Below are positions 2-21,335 of a stretch of DNA of 23,055 nt, one piece after another. Numbering within the stretch: the stretch's first letter is position 1; every line of letters starts with the position of its first letter. The position numbers and the translations under genes are program-made. The stretch comes from a virus: positions 1-23,055 of the IMG/VR virus record IMGVR_UViG_3300025543_000229, one strand, 5' to 3'. The notes beneath the pieces are model-generated. The model was not told where the DNA came from. It saw nothing but the letters and a program-made list of their open reading frames with translations, and did not search any database.

Positions 2-3000
2 GGCGGAGAAATCGTAGAGCGCACAGCTACAGACGTGCTTAAAGGGGCACCAAAAGAATTCTTAAAAGATGCTTTGGAAGAAGGTGCTACTGGTGCGGCA
101 CAAGAAGCCACTCAAATTGCGGGCAAGCGTGCTACCGGCGAGCAAGTAGGGGACTTACTTAGCGACGAAAATATTAAGTCCGTTATAGACTCAGCGGCGG
201 CTGAAGCGGCGGGTGGCATTGCAGGCAGTGGGATAAATGTAGCTACAGACGCCGGACGACAGCTTGTAGAGAAAAAGAAGAAAGAAATAATAACTCGTGT
301 ACTAGCCAACCAAGCGAAAGCAGCGGACTTTACCGAGCTAACAGAACAAGAGTTAATGGAGTTTGGTTCGCGTATTGACCAATATATTCGTGAGGGTAAG
401 AGCGAAGAAGAAGCGGTTAAACTAGCAGGTCAAGATTCTATTACAGGTGATGTAGGTGCGATTGAAGGGGCTTCTGCCCAAGCCGAAGAAGAAGTCGCTG
501 GTGCCCCAGAAAGTTTAGCCCCCGGTGAAAGTGTTGAAATAGACGAAACTGTAGACCTGCCCCAAGAAGAAAAGGAAGGCATCTTAGACATGGCGCGTAA
601 CGACGCGCAAAATAAGACAGAGTATGACGAAGAGATGAGTCAAAACCAAATGATCATCTTTGAAACTCTAGGCCCTAATGCCGCTGCGCTGTTTGAAAGT
701 ACAGCACGAGCTTTAATAGACGCTAAAAAACCTTCTGTTGCCGAGCCTGCTCTTGGAGAAATATCACAAGAGGAACTAGAAGACGGAAAGCCAGCCCCAG
801 CACTCAACTCTATAGACCAAAAGCTAGAAACAAAAGCACTGCAAGAAGAAGAGCAGGTGTCCCTAGACCTTGGGCCGGAAGTTAACACCATTAAGTCCAA
901 GGCGGTTAAAGGACGTAGCGGTAGGGGTAGACCCCCTACAATAAAGACTACAGCGCAAATAGCGCAAGCTGCTGCAAATACAAAACTCAGCAAGGAGCGC
1001 ACCGATAGAATTGCTAAGGCAAGGAAGAAAGCCGCCACTTCTATAAACCCGGTAAAACTTACTACCCTGCTTAAAAAGTTTGGGTTTGAGACCATCGAAG
1101 AATACGAAGCTTTTGACCCAAGACCTCAAGCTGCGCCCGAAGTGGTAGCTACAGAAGTCGTAGAAGATGAAGCAGGGCTTAGCAGGTTAGAAAGAATAGA
1201 AAGGGCCGTCCCTAAAGAAGAAACTTTAGAAACAGATGAGCTGACCCCCAAGCAAAAACAAGAATTAAAACAACGTAACGCAAAGGTTAGGAAGCATAAT
1301 GCCTTAACCGAAGAGCTTAAGAAGTATCAGACTAAGCGTATAGAAGCGCTTACCGGGCTTTACGAAGTGCTCAATGACCCCCAATACAGGGGTAACGGTG
1401 TTGCCCTTAACAACATAAAGAAGTTTATTGCCCGCGAGGATATTAGTCCTGACGAGCGGGAGTTAGCAAAACAACGAGCAGAGTCGAAGGGCACAACGAA
1501 ACGCTCTGATGTTATACCCGAGTCTACAAATAGTGAGACTAGGCCGGAGTATGCAGGGGCTACGCAGCCTGCTTCTTTGTTTGACGCCATAATCGAAAAC
1601 GGCAGTCCCTTTGAAAAGTTATTAGCCCGTAGGTTAAAACCATTTCTTGCTAACACACAGCTAGTTATAGTCAACGATATAGCTACAGACATCCCCGATA
1701 GTGCGATACAACAAGATTTTTACGGTGCGAGCGGTATATACGATTCGGTTAGTAACACCGTATTCCTAAACAACACCACTCAAGATGCGATGGAGTCGGG
1801 GCTAAACAACACTGTGTTCCTTCATGAGGCTGTGCACGCTGCTACCGTTGGGATAATGCAAGCCTACGTAGAGAACCCAGATTCCTTGTCACCTAAAGCT
1901 CAAGAAGCCGTGCGGCAGATATATGATTTAATGGGCGCAGCGCAAGGTGTTTACACTAAAAGAAAAGAAGCGGGACTTACTTCTCGTGCTCTTGACGCCC
2001 TTGCTGACGGAGAACAAGGTCTTGATGTCTTTAACGACCTCTACGAGTTTGTAGCTTACGGTATTACAAAGCCTGAGTTCCAAGAGTTCTTAACTTTTGT
2101 TGAGCCTACGTTTAGTTGGAAAGTAAGTACTGTACGTAATGGCCTCGGTAAGTTCTTTGATGCCGTCCGTAAGCTATTTAACATACCTGATAACCAGTTT
2201 AACGGGTTCCTATCCCTTGTTGACATAACGGACACGCTTTTAGACGAGAGCAAAGGGTTTCAAAACCCGAACCCCACTGTAGTAGCGCAAGCAAAGAAAC
2301 AAGTCCGCCGTGCTTCAGCAGCAGCAGCTAAGCTAGCCAAAAGTTCGCGTGAGGAGGCGATGGTTGATAGTTTATCAGAACTCGCAGCAGCGACTCGCAA
2401 CTCTACCGACGCTGTTAACTTACTTAAAAGTGTAAAAGACGCTATTAGCATTCCAGCCCTACGTAAGCTGCTTTATACCTATACTACTGATGGTATAAAT
2501 AGAATCTATGCAAGCAGTGTTAAAAACCTTACGAATATAGACAACGCTGTTATGGACATGGCTATATATCGGGGTAGAAGACTCCGTGATTTAGCAGACA
2601 AACTGCCCGAGTGGGATTCTTTTAACCAAGCGTTTGAGAAGGGGGCGATTATACTTGCGGATGTTATGCACCTTGCTACCCTGCACAACTTTGATCCCGC
2701 TGCGCATAAAAACCTAGCAATGGCCCTAAAAAATGACTCCCAGTTAAATTTGTTACGCCGAAAAGAAAGGCAGATAGCTGCCAACCCTTTGTTTAATAAG
2801 TTTGTAAAAAACTCTGCTCGCGCAAAAGTTACTACCAGAGAAAACCATATTAGAGAAGTCTATGAAGGCGCTACTATAGATGGTGATGTGTATGCTGGGT
2901 GGAATAACTTACAGAAAGAAGAAAACGGGGGTCAAAAAGGAGTAAAAATTTATAAGATGGCTCGTGATTCTTACAGAGAAACTCTGGAAGAACACCAACG

Positions 3001-5461
3001 TATACTACAGCGCAAGGTAGCTAGGTCAGGTTTACCCGATGAAGCTAAGAGAGTAATTTTGGCTGCTATCACACAAAACTTTCAAGAAGCTAAAAAGCTC
3101 GAAGTTTACTTCCCTCTAATGCGTTACGGCGATTACTGGTTGCGTGTTGGCAAAGGGAAGACGCGTGAGTTCTATATGTTTGAATCGGCAGTAGCTAGAA
3201 ACGCTTTTGCGCGTAAGCGAGCCAACGAACGTAGACAAACTTATGATGAGGCTCTTTCTTCTGGGGACATTCAAGTCGGAGACAACAAGCGTACAAATGA
3301 ATTCGAGAAAGAAGCAAACGACGCAAGTGGTACTTTAAAAACAGTCTTTGAACTCCTCGACGAAAACCCCGGTGGAAACACCAGCACCATAAAAGATAGT
3401 GTGTATCAGATGTACTTGATGACGTTATCTGGGCAAGATATGCGTAGACGCTTCGTGCATCGTAAGGGCGTTGCGGGCTTTAGTCCTGATGTCTTACGTA
3501 ACTTTGTTACCTCGCAGCATACTAGTGCAAACCAACTTGCTCGTTTGGAATACTCTGAGACTATACGCAACTACATTGCAGCGGCTTACGCCGAAATAGA
3601 AGGCAATCCAGATGCTGCTCGGCTAGAAGTTGCTATAGATGAGATTGCAGCTAGGGCGCTTGATGAGACTAAACCCGGTAAACAAGACAGTCCTTTGGAT
3701 AAGTTTGCTTCTGCGGGCAACAAAGTTGTTTTCTATTGGCTGTTGAGTGCTCCTAAGTCCGCAATTATTCAATTTACTCAGCTACCTATTGTTGGTTTAC
3801 CAGTGCTTTCAGCCGAGTTTGGAGTGGACGCATCTATAATAGCATCGCGCTACATGGCTACTTTAGCCGTAAACAAGTTTGGTACTTCTGAGTTTGATGC
3901 CGATGGGGTTTTAAAGACCCGCTTTAGTGAACCGTCGATGAGTAAAAGCTCTTACGTACTAGATAACCCCGATAAAGAGCTATCTAGGGCGTTACAAGAA
4001 GCGCACGCGTACGCAAATGACAGAGAATTTTTTATGCAAAGCTACGCTGCGGACTTAACGTCAAGATCACAGCAGTCTTTCAAAACCCGACAGGGGCTTC
4101 CTGATAGAGTAGTTAAGGGGGTGGCTAGCTTTATGAGCGGCGGGTTCCACCACATGGAACGCATTAACCGCGAAATTATGTTTATGTCCGCTTTTGAATT
4201 AGCTTATGCAGATGCTAAGAGCAGAGGACTAACGGGTAAAAAAGCGCAGCAGGAGGCACAAGAAAGAGCCTACCGTCTTTCTTTAAACGGGTTGTTTAAT
4301 TATTCTAACTATAACAAACCGCGTATAATGAAATCTACTCCTGCGGGGCGTTTAGCAACTCAATTCATGACGTTCCCTATGCAAATGACTTCTTACTTAA
4401 CTCGTAATTTCTTCAACATGCTTAACTTCTACAAGACTAGCGAAGAAAGAAAACAAGCAGCTACGCAGTTCTTTGGCACTATGGGTATGACTTTTATGTT
4501 TGCAGGCGCAGTTGGTTTGCCGGGCTACACTTTATTTTGGTCAACTATAGAAGCTATCCGCGAAATGGCGCGTCCTGATGGAGAAGATGATGATCCTTGG
4601 TACGACGAGGACGAGAACAATAATCCTTTAGGCTATCGAGATTTAGACCTTTGGTTCCGAGAAACTTTCTTACCCAAGTACTTTGGGGCGGACAGCAGCC
4701 TTGCTAATGTTTTAGGGTTAAGTGAAGAGCAAGCGGCGGTACTTCAACGTGGCATGGAGCTAGGGCCTATATCAGCTCTTACGGGCTTTGACTTTGCAGG
4801 TTCTACTTCTTTAAATGGTTTGTGGTTCCGCGACGATGTAAAGAAAGACAACTATGAAGAGGCATTGACGAATTGGTTATACAACACAGCAACGGGACCA
4901 TTTGGTAGTTTAGGGCGTAATGCCGCTCGCGGGGCTGAGGACTTAGAAAAAGGAAACTATAAGAGGGCAATGGAAGCTTTCTTACCTGCAATGTTTAGAA
5001 ACCCTGTTAAAGCGTTACGCCTATACGAAGAGGGCTACAAAACTAGACAGGGTGCTCCTGTAAGACCACAGGAGTACTACACTAAAACTAAGATAGCTGG
5101 ACAAATTTTGGGGTTCGGAGATACAGAAGTTTCGGAAACATTAGCTAGTAACTTCCTTGCGCTACAACTAAAGAACGATCTTGAAATGCAAAAAACTGAA
5201 TTGCTAGATGACTTAAATAGAGCAGTAATGAACTATGAAGTTTCTTTGAGCGACGAAGCGTATAGCGCAATTATGAAAATTAGCGACAAAATAGACAAGT
5301 ATAACCTAAGAAATCCGGGGGTGTTTATCTCCTCAGACACTATAGAAAAATCTTTAGAGGGTAAAGCGGAAAGAAGAGGGGCTGCGTTTGACGGACTAAA
5401 CATGTCTAAAGGCTTAGAGCCTTATATAATTCCATTACTAGATAGATACCGTAACCCTTAA
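2..5461 (+). CDS. Giant PLxRFG-type large polyvalent protein with HExxH motif (5' partial)
   Basis: The reading frame is open to the first base, so the true start lies upstream; the GTG at 35 is just an internal candidate. At least 1819 codons are present. Seen directly: an Ala/Glu-rich, probably helical N-terminal part; a HEAVH zinc-metallopeptidase motif at about residues 608-612 counted from base 2, with a possible third ligand Glu in YEFVAYG near 682; long helical charged stretches; a hydrophobic, Gly-rich segment near 1491-1515 followed by an acidic EDDDPW stretch and a C-terminal RNPVKALRLYEEGYKTRQG block. This C-terminal order matches what I know of phage PLxRFG-domain / LPD38-like large polyvalent proteins, which sit at the end of virion gene clusters and are thought to be carried in the capsid and ejected into the cell. 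The role as an injected internal virion protein with protease activity is inferred. It is the only + strand gene in the window. Confidence 0.85.
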   Translation, partial: GGEIVERTATDVLKGAPKEFLKDALEEGATGAAQEATQIAGKRATGEQVGDLLSDENIKSVIDSAAAEAAGGIAGSGINVATDAGRQLVEKKKKEIITRVLANQAKAADFTELTEQELMEFGSRIDQYIREGKSEEEAVKLAGQDSITGDVGAIEGASAQAEEEVAGAPESLAPGESVEIDETVDLPQEEKEGILDMARNDAQNKTEYDEEMSQNQMIIFETLGPNAAALFESTARALIDAKKPSVAEPALGEISQEELEDGKPAPALNSIDQKLETKALQEEEQVSLDLGPEVNTIKSKAVKGRSGRGRPPTIKTTAQIAQAAANTKLSKERTDRIAKARKKAATSINPVKLTTLLKKFGFETIEEYEAFDPRPQAAPEVVATEVVEDEAGLSRLERIERAVPKEETLETDELTPKQKQELKQRNAKVRKHNALTEELKKYQTKRIEALTGLYEVLNDPQYRGNGVALNNIKKFIAREDISPDERELAKQRAESKGTTKRSDVIPESTNSETRPEYAGATQPASLFDAIIENGSPFEKLLARRLKPFLANTQLVIVNDIATDIPDSAIQQDFYGASGIYDSVSNTVFLNNTTQDAMESGLNNTVFLHEAVHAATVGIMQAYVENPDSLSPKAQEAVRQIYDLMGAAQGVYTKRKEAGLTSRALDALADGEQGLDVFNDLYEFVAYGITKPEFQEFLTFVEPTFSWKVSTVRNGLGKFFDAVRKLFNIPDNQFNGFLSLVDITDTLLDESKGFQNPNPTVVAQAKKQVRRASAAAAKLAKSSREEAMVDSLSELAAATRNSTDAVNLLKSVKDAISIPALRKLLYTYTTDGINRIYASSVKNLTNIDNAVMDMAIYRGRRLRDLADKLPEWDSFNQAFEKGAIILADVMHLATLHNFDPAAHKNLAMALKNDSQLNLLRRKERQIAANPLFNKFVKNSARAKVTTRENHIREVYEGATIDGDVYAGWNNLQKEENGGQKGVKIYKMARDSYRETLEEHQRILQRKVARSGLPDEAKRVILAAITQNFQEAKKLEVYFPLMRYGDYWLRVGKGKTREFYMFESAVARNAFARKRANERRQTYDEALSSGDIQVGDNKRTNEFEKEANDASGTLKTVFELLDENPGGNTSTIKDSVYQMYLMTLSGQDMRRRFVHRKGVAGFSPDVLRNFVTSQHTSANQLARLEYSETIRNYIAAAYAEIEGNPDAARLEVAIDEIAARALDETKPGKQDSPLDKFASAGNKVVFYWLLSAPKSAIIQFTQLPIVGLPVLSAEFGVDASIIASRYMATLAVNKFGTSEFDADGVLKTRFSEPSMSKSSYVLDNPDKELSRALQEAHAYANDREFFMQSYAADLTSRSQQSFKTRQGLPDRVVKGVASFMSGGFHHMERINREIMFMSAFELAYADAKSRGLTGKKAQQEAQERAYRLSLNGLFNYSNYNKPRIMKSTPAGRLATQFMTFPMQMTSYLTRNFFNMLNFYKTSEERKQAATQFFGTMGMTFMFAGAVGLPGYTLFWSTIEAIREMARPDGEDDDPWYDEDENNNPLGYRDLDLWFRETFLPKYFGADSSLANVLGLSEEQAAVLQRGMELGPISALTGFDFAGSTSLNGLWFRDDVKKDNYEEALTNWLYNTATGPFGSLGRNAARGAEDLEKGNYKRAMEAFLPAMFRNPVKALRLYEEGYKTRQGAPVRPQEYYTKTKIAGQILGFGDTEVSETLASNFLALQLKNDLEMQKTELLDDLNRAVMNYEVSLSDEAYSAIMKISDKIDKYNLRNPGVFISSDTIEKSLEGKAERRGAAFDGLNMSKGLEPYIIPLLDRYRNP

Positions 5462-8526: not shown

Positions 8527-8754
8527 TTATAGTCCGTATAGAAACTTTTCTACCAGTGCAGTAAGCGGAGGCTTGGGGGTGTTAACCCCCTCAAACCAGT
8601 TGTAAACCGCCTGCCTACTTACACCCAAGGTATGTGCTACTTCCGAAACAGAGATGTCATTGCGTATGCAGTGCCGCCCGAGCTTTACGCCCAGTAAGCG
8701 GCCACTAGCCTCTTTGTTTTTTTGAATCAACCTTGCGGTATAGCCATAGCTCAT
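8527..8754 (-). CDS. Small HTH DNA-binding protein (Cro/XRE-like)
   Basis: 75 aa. Residues about 34-60 form a classic helix-turn-helix: ISVSEVAHTLGVSRQAVYNW, with the recognition helix starting at SRQAV. The N-terminus is basic. The start is fixed by a TAATG junction with the upstream ssDNA-binding protein gene (stop 8756-8754, ATG 8754-8752), so translation is probably coupled. It lies between the ssDNA-binding protein and primase genes, so it could regulate the replication unit or assist at an origin. No target can be assigned from sequence. It is one of three candidate readers of the palindromes at 18100, 20091 and 21299. Confidence 0.8.
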   Translation of the reverse strand: MSYGYTARLIQKNKEASGRLLGVKLGRHCIRNDISVSEVAHTLGVSRQAVYNWFEGVNTPKPPLTALVEKFLYGL

Positions 8755-10106: not shown

Positions 10107-10134
10107 AGTATAGTCCTGTAGTTTACATTGTCAA
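10107..10134 (-). promoter_or_regulatory. Strong sigma70-type promoter of the replication unit
   Basis: On the - strand TTGACA (10134-10129) and TATACT (10112-10107) are separated by 16 bases. The -35 box is a perfect consensus and the -10 box differs by one base. It lies between the SNF2 helicase stop (10131, overlapping the -35 box) and the AGGAGGAG site of the gene at 10076, so it would add an internal start for the genes at 10076 to 5458. Confidence 0.8.
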
Positions 10135-14234: not shown

Positions 14235-14340
14235 TCTCTTCTTCCTTCTGTTTTGGTTTCTCAAAGATTTTTGCCCAGTTCTCCCCGAACTCGTGCATCG
14301 GTACGAACGTGGGTCTACGCTTGCTGCCTTTTCCATTCAT
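14158..14340 (-). CDS. GKGSKRRP small phage protein
   Basis: 60 aa. The N-terminus MNGKGSKRRP...FGENWAKIF matches a short protein type seen repeatedly in phage genomes (GKGSKRRP then a F-x-x-N-W-x-x-I-F helix); its function is not known. The second half is a Lys/Glu-rich disordered tail encoded over the start of DUF3310. A strong GGAGGAAG site lies 6 bases before the ATG. It overlaps the end of the XRE-sigma4 gene by 26 bases. The conserved part is outside the DUF3310 overlap, so the tail is probably free to vary. Confidence 0.75.
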   Translation of the reverse strand: MNGKGSKRRPTFVPMHEFGENWAKIFEKPKQKEEENANSKRTKSGKGTKEGQRTDETDGR

Positions 14341-15133
14341 CTAACTTCCTCCAATATTCTTGTGTTGGCTCTTTTCCTAGCTCTTTTTCTAGCTTCTTTT
14401 GTAACCGCTTTTCATCTAACCGCTTTTGTATTTCTTTTGCCCTATCTAGCCTTTCTTGTGCCCTTTTCGCCTCAAGCATAACTTGTCGTGCTTCTTGCCT
14501 AGCGACAGCCATCGCATTTTCAACTATTCTTTTTTCTGTATGTTCCCCTTCTTCATCGCTGTGTGCGTAAGCTAAAGAAGCTGTTGCACGGGATCTAAGT
14601 TTTCTTAAGGCTTTCTGTTCTATTTGCTGAATTCTAGTGCTGCCTACTCCTAGAATTTCTCCTATTTCGGGTAAAGTTTTAGGAGGCTCTTCGTTTAGTC
14701 CATAGCGTAAGTTCATTATCTGCTGCTCTCTGTCAGTTAGTTGCCCTACCGCTTGAGCCAAAAGGTCTGTCGCATCACCGTCGCTTAGTATTTGTAGCGG
14801 GTCAGTCCCACCGGCTAGTAAGTTACTAGAGGCTAATTCTTCCATGTTAGCTTCTACTGCACCGAAGTTAGTTTCTAGCGGGTCGTTTATATGTTGTGGG
14901 GGGAAAAGGTCGTATACGCTGCAAACAAAGAAATCGCAAAGAGTTTGTACTGGTGCAGTTACTTCTCCTTTTTTAGTAAGGGCCGGGGCTTTTAAATTAA
15001 GTACTTTGCCTATAGTCGTTTGGGCTAATCCGCTAGCTCTACTAAGTTCAGCCGCATTGTTTAGACCGTAAGACTGCATAAGCCTAAACAGGTAGTTGTT
15101 TTTTACTTTTACTTCTACTCTGTAGTCTTTCAT
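14315..15133 (-). CDS. Fusion of XRE-type HTH with sigma70 region 4 and coiled-coil tail
   Basis: 272 aa. Residues ~12-78 form an XRE/Cro-like domain (LFRLMQSYGL...AAELSRASGLAQTTIGKVLN...VYDLFP). Residues ~126-182 are a sigma70 region 4: LTDREQQIMNLRYGL, TLPEIGEILGVGSTRIQQIE and QKALRKLRSR, nearly the RpoD consensus. Residues 200-272 are a long charged coiled coil. Region 2 and region 3 of a sigma factor are missing, so it cannot melt a -10 element by itself. It may tether RNA polymerase through region 4 contacts while the XRE domain gives DNA specificity, or act as an anti- or co-sigma factor. GGAGGAAG precedes the ATG, which overlaps the upstream stop (ATGA). Domain calls are confident; the role is inference. 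Confidence 0.85.
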   Translation of the reverse strand: MKDYRVEVKVKNNYLFRLMQSYGLNNAAELSRASGLAQTTIGKVLNLKAPALTKKGEVTAPVQTLCDFFVCSVYDLFPPQHINDPLETNFGAVEANMEELASSNLLAGGTDPLQILSDGDATDLLAQAVGQLTDREQQIMNLRYGLNEEPPKTLPEIGEILGVGSTRIQQIEQKALRKLRSRATASLAYAHSDEEGEHTEKRIVENAMAVARQEARQVMLEAKRAQERLDRAKEIQKRLDEKRLQKKLEKELGKEPTQEYWRKLDEWKRQQA

Positions 15134-15474
15134 TGCGCTTCCTCCGTGTTATCTGCTCTTTCATAACTACCTATTACGTCTCCTCCATCTAACCAAACGC
15201 TTAAGGCTTTTAGTATGTTTTCTTTTCTACCACGCAACTTTTTTGCTTTTTCTATGCGCGCCGCTCTTATCGCAGGTAGCTTGGCTACTTCTGCTTTCCA
15301 CAATTCTTTTTGCCTTTTCTTTTGCTCAGGCGTCATTTTAAAAGCCGCTGTCCTTTGGGACAAAAAAGAAGCTAACCGTTGCGTGAGCGTAGGTGGTTTT
15401 AACGCTTTAGTATTTTCTATTATCGCTGCTTCTAACCGTGCTAAAGTTTTAAGCAAGTCTGCTTTAGTTGTCAT
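15130..15474 (-). CDS. Basic helical protein, unknown function
   Basis: 114 aa from ATG at 15474, which has GGGGA upstream. An in-frame GTG at 15525 would add 17 residues but lacks a ribosome-binding site. The protein has an N-terminal leucine-rich helix (KADLLKTLARLEAAI), a very basic middle (KKRQKELWKAE, RAARIEKAKKLRGRK) and an acidic end. It is the first gene after the 15475-15626 gap and is coupled by ATGA to the XRE-sigma4 gene. No family recognised. Confidence 0.65.
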   Translation of the reverse strand: MTTKADLLKTLARLEAAIIENTKALKPPTLTQRLASFLSQRTAAFKMTPEQKKRQKELWKAEVAKLPAIRAARIEKAKKLRGRKENILKALSVWLDGGDVIGSYERADNTEEAQ

Positions 15475-15626
15475 ATCTTTGTATCCCCTGTAGTTAAGGC
15501 CCGTAGCGTGGGCTAGCCGGTGCACACAAGAAGCGGAGAACGTGCCTATGAGCTGTCATTCTTCTTTGTACACTGCGGGTGTTTTTGGCTATGAATGAAC
15601 CAACCCACCGCCCGCTGGGGTGTTAG
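15475..15626 (-). other. 152-bp gap with no confident gene; possible leader
   Basis: This is the largest gap between genes in the window. On the - strand it holds a GC-rich run soon after the polymerase stop and several short inverted repeats (for example GGCTAGCC at 15511-15518). It also has a possible 21-codon leader ORF starting at the ATG preceded by AAAGAAGA (about 15563-15561) and ending just before the next gene. No convincing promoter pair or T-tract terminator was found. Confidence 0.35.
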
Positions 15627-18099: not shown

Positions 18100-18136
18100 G
18101 TTGTAAATCATCTAACAGTGTTAGGTCATTTACAAC
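18100..18136. promoter_or_regulatory. Palindromic element copy 1 (16 of 18 arm positions symmetric)
   Basis: A 37-bp dyad centred on 18118: arms GTTGTAAATCATCTAACA and TGTTAGGTCATTTACAAC around a single G. Sixteen of 18 arm positions pair. The core is CTAACA-G-TGTTAG. The right arm contains the last codons and stop of the ribbon-helix-helix gene, and the left arm ends seven bases before the terminator stem. It shares 24 of 27 invariant bases with copies at 20091 and 21299. It could be an operator for a dimeric regulator, or an RNA hairpin at the operon end. Confidence 0.85.
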
Positions 18137-20090: not shown

Positions 20091-20127
20091 GTTGTAAGTA
20101 ATCTAACAGTGTTAGGTGTTATAAATT
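20091..20127. promoter_or_regulatory. Palindromic element copy 2, directly before the 282-aa gene
   Basis: Core CTAACA-G-TGTTAG at 20103-20115, centre 20109, flanked by GTTGTAAGTAAT and GTGTTATAAATT. The first 27 bases differ from the other copies only at positions 8, 10 and 19 of the unit. On the - strand it runs into ACAACACTGGAGAACGACAATG, so it occupies nearly the whole 49-bp gap between the gene ending at 20126 and the start at 20076. The outer arms are less symmetric than in copy 1. Confidence 0.85.
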
Positions 20128-21298: not shown

Positions 21299-21335
21299 GT
21301 TGTAAATGATCTAACACTGTTAGGTGTTGTGAATT
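21299..21335. promoter_or_regulatory. Palindromic element copy 3, directly before the 294-aa gene
   Basis: Core CTAACA-C-TGTTAG at 21311-21323, centre 21317, flanked by GTTGTAAATGAT and GTGTTGTGAATT. The central base is C instead of G. On the - strand it continues ACAACAATGGAGAACGACATG, matching the copy 2 leader over about 42 bases with four substitutions and one single-base gap. It fills most of the 62-bp gap after the gene ending at 21348. Confidence 0.85.

Follow-up and report, generated by a model that had tools for sequence, protein, structure and literature searches.

An XRE-type domain joined to sigma-70 region 4 in an accessory phage protein, a putative two-headed transcription factor

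Architecture of the fusion protein

The window analysed here, that is, the whole stretch of DNA under study, is a 23,055-base IMG/VR fragment from a phage. Its replication cluster includes, after polA and a conserved RNA, an open reading frame of 272 aa on the minus strand (14315-15133, ATG at 15133). The original prediction had placed an XRE helix-turn-helix (HTH) and a sigma region 4 in this one protein, and the ORF, the Pfam matches, the structural models and the family alignment all agree with that description. The XRE/Cro-C1-type HTH domain occupies aa 13-79 (14897-15097, minus strand) and includes a recognition helix at aa 38-45 (14999-15022, minus), which appears as a helix over the same residues in the model and varies among close alleles. 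It is followed by a linker (aa 80-122; 14768-14896, minus), by the sigma-70 region 4 domain, hereafter sigma4 (aa 125-182; 14588-14761, minus), and by a long C-terminal helix (14378-14548, minus). The recognition-helix positions of sigma4 fall at aa 164-170 (14624-14644, minus), corresponding to E. coli residues 583-589; they are hypervariable among close alleles, and the residues that read specific bases are replaced.

The sigma4 assignment is strong. The Pfam model Sigma70_r4 matches aa 129-180 with an E-value of 1.4e-14 (score 53.8 bits, cut-off 24.1), and the structural model of the domain superposes on SigA region 4 (7kuf) with Z 11.7 and 1.8 Å over 71 residues; in the fold match, identity to domain 4 of S. 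aureus SigA is 47%. The structure of lambda cI, sigma4 and DNA (1RIO) is also among the structural matches of the sigma4 model. For the N-terminal domain, the Pfam model HTH_26 (Cro/C1-type) covers aa 17-77 with an E-value of 0.003; in the window protein this match does not reach the Pfam cut-off. Across 11 diverse family members, every protein is hit by both models, and the best E-values are 7e-19 for Sigma70_r4 and 8e-5 for HTH_26. When aa 1-85 were modelled alone with AlphaFold (AF2), an XRE-like domain with a pLDDT of 85.5 was obtained. The PDB structures nearest to it come for the most part from XRE proteins (SaPI Stl, 434 repressor, C.AhdI, SinR), and every match has a Foldseek E-value of 0.07 or worse, so that none is significant by that measure. 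Profiles and fold together support the XRE/Cro-C1 assignment with moderate strength. A chance combination of the domains can be excluded, because the whole architecture is conserved across independent contigs.

Of the three segments that were compared, the linker is conserved best (its mean identity inside a class is 86-89%), yet it is predicted to be mostly flexible, with low pLDDT from aa 88 onwards. The long coiled coil that had been expected may correspond to a confidently predicted helix at aa 196-252 of the window protein (pLDDT about 85), but this part is variable and is missing in L034 and L036, whose proteins terminate shortly after sigma4; the coiled coil is not part of the family core. 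The C-terminus of the fusion protein consists of sigma4 and this helix, with no dimerisation or S24 peptidase domain of the lambda-CI type, and the protein has no Pfam match to AsiA or MotA.

Region 2 is absent, as predicted: neither the fusion protein and its relatives nor the rest of the window nor 38 further records gave a match to Sigma70_r2. A region 4 lacking region 2 might be one half of a split sigma factor, with region 2 provided by a separate phage protein in the manner of T4 gp55 and gp33 (PMC2988020). The 39 records searched, including the window, extend up to 64 kb and none yielded Sigma70_r2, although most are fragments and a divergent, gp55-like region 2 could escape Pfam; we consider a split sigma factor very unlikely.

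Distribution of the family and its relatives

The search for the same fusion in other phages was productive: about 25 further uncultured viral contigs carry the order XRE-linker-sigma4, at identities from 99% down to 27%. No fusion gene was found in INPHARED phages, in plasmids or in two scans of GTDB contigs. Those phage hits from human-faecal and cyanophage records that were inspected are full-length sigma factors, and the inspected plasmid hits (Pseudomonas, Cupriavidus, Virgibacillus) are either ordinary sigma factors or, in one case, part of a sigma factor. The invariance of the N-terminal MKDYR was partly imposed by the search pattern, and its conservation carries no weight as evidence; L075-L077, which were recovered with other patterns, retain MKDYRLE. 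The window phage is a distant relative of the Pseudomonas phages Rollin and KPP25 and of Rhizobium phage RHph_TM3_14A. A profile search of the records of these three phages and of Parlo found no fusion gene in them, and the lone weak hit among cultured relatives, in RHph_TM3_14A, covers the coiled-coil part only.

A conserved RNA and an accessory slot behind polA

Between polA and the slot that holds the fusion gene lies a conserved structured RNA of 122 nt (15498-15619, minus), which is also found in relatives. In the alignment, 98.3% of cells are paired and 9 of 23 pairs covary with changes on both sides, eight of them within a 13-bp helix, and the slid controls collapse. The element has no Rfam match, and its folding energy as a single sequence lies within the ordinary range (z -0.11). 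Inspection by eye suggested a possible pseudoknot, GUGGGU/GCCCAC.

An exact-pattern scan with the RNA core returned 49 viral stretches, most of which have polA upstream and a DUF3310/nucleotide-kinase-like gene downstream. The fusion gene is found between these two genes in only about a quarter of the stretches, while the others have unrelated small genes or nothing in the slot. In the window, synteny identifies a 131-aa ORF (15130-15525, minus) as the companion of the fusion gene; the order of the two is reversed in class B phages. With a covariance model, six contigs that have polA elsewhere also yielded weaker copies of the RNA, located upstream of the 131-aa/fusion pair, but the score is identical in five of the six, so that there are few independent cases.

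Among 20 related records searched whole, 18 lack the fusion gene in the available sequence, with no sigma4 match above the Pfam cut-off. The gene is thus dispensable accessory cargo, and its absence from most related records argues against a core switch factor. The slot itself may be a hotspot at which genes for host takeover or anti-defence collect. Alternative cargo downstream of the RNA, seen in L081-L126, includes a 63-aa protein (MTTIDSLNAYIQ), a 288-aa protein beginning MSNLKTIVRG and a 320-aa protein (MKQQTVRGIPQW). In contig L015/L028, about 526 bp (L015 2717-3242) interrupt the fusion gene; this insert, real or chimeric, contains an XRE gene and the start of an ORF resembling the ImmA/IrrE type.

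Elsewhere in the window, a 75-aa Cro-like HTH protein (8527-8754, minus), present in several relatives, is a candidate core regulator, and a giant 1808-aa PLxRFG/DarB-like protein (35-5461, plus strand) converges on the replication cluster. T7-type RNA polymerase (PF00940) gave no match, but the control genomes likewise gave none, so that this negative carries no weight.

Diversified recognition helices on a conserved sigma4 surface

Residues 38, 39, 40 and 43 of the XRE domain are presumably the base-contacting positions, judging from an alignment by eye with the 434 repressor. For sigma4, the recognition-helix positions were taken from the E. coli lists in PMC4943231 and PMC2613000. When the allele of the window and its two closest other alleles, those of L002 and L003, are compared over aa 1-182, 6 of the 9 recognition-helix positions are variable against 5 of 173 others (Fisher 8e-7), and with five clades pooled the figures are 18 of 45 against 118 of 862 (2e-5); these p-values are only descriptive, because the positional variability had been noticed before testing, and the statistics rest on few substitutions. 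The signal is clear in class A1, points the same way but weakly in class B after two more sequences were included (p 0.02), and is not seen as excess variability at recognition positions in clades A2 and C. Between the window and L003, the nine recognition positions show nine nonsynonymous and no synonymous changes. Over whole genes, the fusion gene has a dN/dS of 0.68 against L003, while polA and the RecB-like gene have 0.07 and 0.02. Diversification of the recognition helices suggests that both heads read DNA and that their specificity is changing.

The window sigma4 reads G-S-T-R-I-Q-Q at aa 164-170, where E. coli has T-R-E-R-I-R-Q. The E. coli residues R584, E585 and R588 are the base readers of sigma4 at -31/-33 (PMC2613000), and in the window protein they have become S, T and Q. 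R584 is retained in only one of 11 members, whereas R586 and Q589 are invariant; the window sigma4 also keeps K593 and R596. With its three specific readers lost, this domain should not read TTGACA as sigma70 does. The description of sigma4 as near-consensus misleads where its DNA-reading part is concerned.

The positions implicated in core binding have fared differently. In E. coli, E555, R562, F563, I565, G577 and L598 are listed for binding to the RNA polymerase core (PMC4943231). The window protein has E, R, Y, L, G and L at these six positions, identical or conservative in each case, and they are mostly kept in relatives; the same positions are also structural, so that their retention is weak evidence for docking. 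Core-binding residues kept while -35 readers are lost is also the pattern of a host RNA polymerase inhibitor, in which sigma4 would compete for the beta flap and shut off the host while the XRE domain spares phage DNA or autoregulates, and T4 gp33 and AsiA provide precedents (PMC2988020, PMC2988021). A general inhibitor, however, has no need of diversifying DNA-recognition residues in both heads, and we regard this explanation as improbable.

Exchange of whole alleles and of single heads

The alleles of the fusion gene have been swapped independently of polA, and the discordance runs in both directions. For L029 and the window, polA is 93% identical but the fusion protein only 42%, while for L002 and the window the values are 70% and 97%; L002 and L010 (98% and 72%) and L029 and L076 (100% and 83%) again show the closer agreement in polA. 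The two heads have also been swapped independently of one another around the conserved linker. L076 and L127 share 97% identity in the XRE domain but 55% in sigma4, L009 and L012 share 91% and 72%, and in L004 and L012 the relation is inverted (78% and 93%); in all three of these head-discordant pairs, linker identity is 86-100%. A comparable organisation is found in HsdS, the specificity subunit of type I restriction systems, in which two separately exchanged DNA-reading domains surround a conserved spacer. HsdS is unrelated in protein and function, and the likeness is an evolutionary analogy only.

Heads that are exchanged as target-recognition domains are in a specificity subunit, recognition helices that diversify in both, and an accessory gene with swapped alleles would also fit a bipartite repressor. 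Here, sigma4 would serve as a second HTH only, making no contact with RNA polymerase, and the protein would bind a composite operator, for example in superinfection immunity or phage competition. This is the main rival to a two-headed factor that docks on RNA polymerase. It has to contend with a sigma4 whose closeness to primary sigma factors far exceeds what a generic HTH would require, as the identity to SigA indicates, with the retention of the core-binding positions, and with the lack of an integrase or a classical repressor neighbourhood in the window. We judge a pure repressor to be rather unlikely, while taking it seriously.

Candidate target sites

Two kinds of site in the window had been put forward as targets. 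TTGACA boxes are found at 10134 and 18065 (minus), upstream of a 129-aa gene and a VRR-NUC-like gene. In front of the 129-aa gene, the TTGACAnTGTAAA promoter is conserved in many relatives; of the relatives examined that have no fusion gene at the slot, 9 of 9 carry it. Since this motif is kept whether or not the fusion gene is there, and since the three TTGACA-reading residues are lost, these promoters were rejected as targets. The second kind consists of near-identical palindromic leaders with the core CTAACA-S-TGTTAG, at 18100-18136, 20091-20127 and 21299-21335. L001, whose XRE domain is identical to that of the window, has the palindrome CTCAGAAATCTGAG at the matching place before the same gene, which rules against the leader as the XRE operator. 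Other palindromes at matching places are CTAACAATTGTTAG in L010 and TGCGGACACGTGTCCGCA in L026; the palindromes are uniform inside one genome and differ from genome to genome. Neither set of sites is likely to be a specific target of the fusion protein, and our searches identified no operator or target promoter for it.

The same observations bear on the idea that the protein is an essential factor for the switch from early to late expression, with the window's TTGACA promoters or palindromic leaders as its targets. A gene adjoining polA in the replication cluster would suit such a role. Against it stand the 18 of 20 related records without the gene, the TTGACAnTGTAAA promoter in all nine slot-negative relatives examined and the different palindrome that accompanies an identical XRE domain in L001. 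The accessory nature of the gene weakens the proposal further, and we give it hardly any credence.

Proposed mode of action and relation to known systems

Our tentative preference is for an accessory two-headed phage transcription factor, in which both heads read DNA and sigma4 probably docks on RNA polymerase. The XRE domain would read one DNA site, and the flexible, conserved linker would carry sigma4 to a second, altered "-35-like" site. Sigma4 would probably dock on the beta flap of the host RNA polymerase, either replacing host region 4 or lying beside it; the protein lacks region 2, so that promoter opening would be left to host sigma. RNA polymerase would in consequence be recruited to sites set by the XRE and sigma4 heads, or blocked there, much as AsiA/MotA or gp33 achieve in T4 along other routes. 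Docking on RNA polymerase, simultaneous binding of DNA by both heads and the direction of the effect are what we infer here, and for the direction we somewhat favour activation. The original prediction of a redirected host RNA polymerase survives in part: a specificity chosen by the XRE domain fits the kept core-binding positions and the diversifying helices, while the target sites proposed for it are unsupported. A more far-reaching version, to which we assign a rather low probability, holds that shuffled and diversified heads supplant host region 4 and create a private composite promoter/operator code, an optional weapon against the transcription of the host or of rival phages.

Several known systems share single aspects of such a factor. 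T4 gp33 is considered to fill the position of sigma4 on the beta flap while lacking region 2 (PMC2988020); the fusion protein is likewise a phage protein without region 2 and may dock on the flap. However, gp33 does not discernibly resemble sigma in sequence and recognises no DNA sequence (PMC2988020), whereas sigma4 of the fusion is clearly homologous to sigma and both recognition helices diversify. As with T4 AsiA and MotA (PMC2988021), the fusion protein would replace the contact between host region 4 and the -35 element while host region 2 opens the promoter; in T4, two unrelated proteins remodel host sigma4, whereas here a single protein would bring its own. The N-terminal domain of lambda cI has been seen bound beside sigma4 on DNA at a -35 site (1RIO; PMC4496699), which places an XRE-type repressor domain next to region 4 as in the fusion. 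Lambda cI contacts a sigma4 supplied by the host, and does so non-covalently, while the fusion unites both domains in one polypeptide. Full-length phage sigma factors, such as that of Synechococcus phage S-B68, have a homologous region 4 but also possess region 2. A fusion of XRE and sigma4 was not found described in the literature of a limited open-access library. Each of the single domains is well known, and the evidence suggests that their fusion is a previously undescribed kind of phage transcription factor.

Conclusions

AsiA, gp33 and other phage proteins that target sigma region 4 or the flap are classic tools in the study of promoter choice. If the proposed mode of action is true, region 4 would be detachable from sigma and could be reused as a programmable targeting head, and a series of natural specificity variants would be at hand with which to decode the two domains. 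Other host-takeover genes could be sought by way of the adjacent conserved RNA and the cargo slot.
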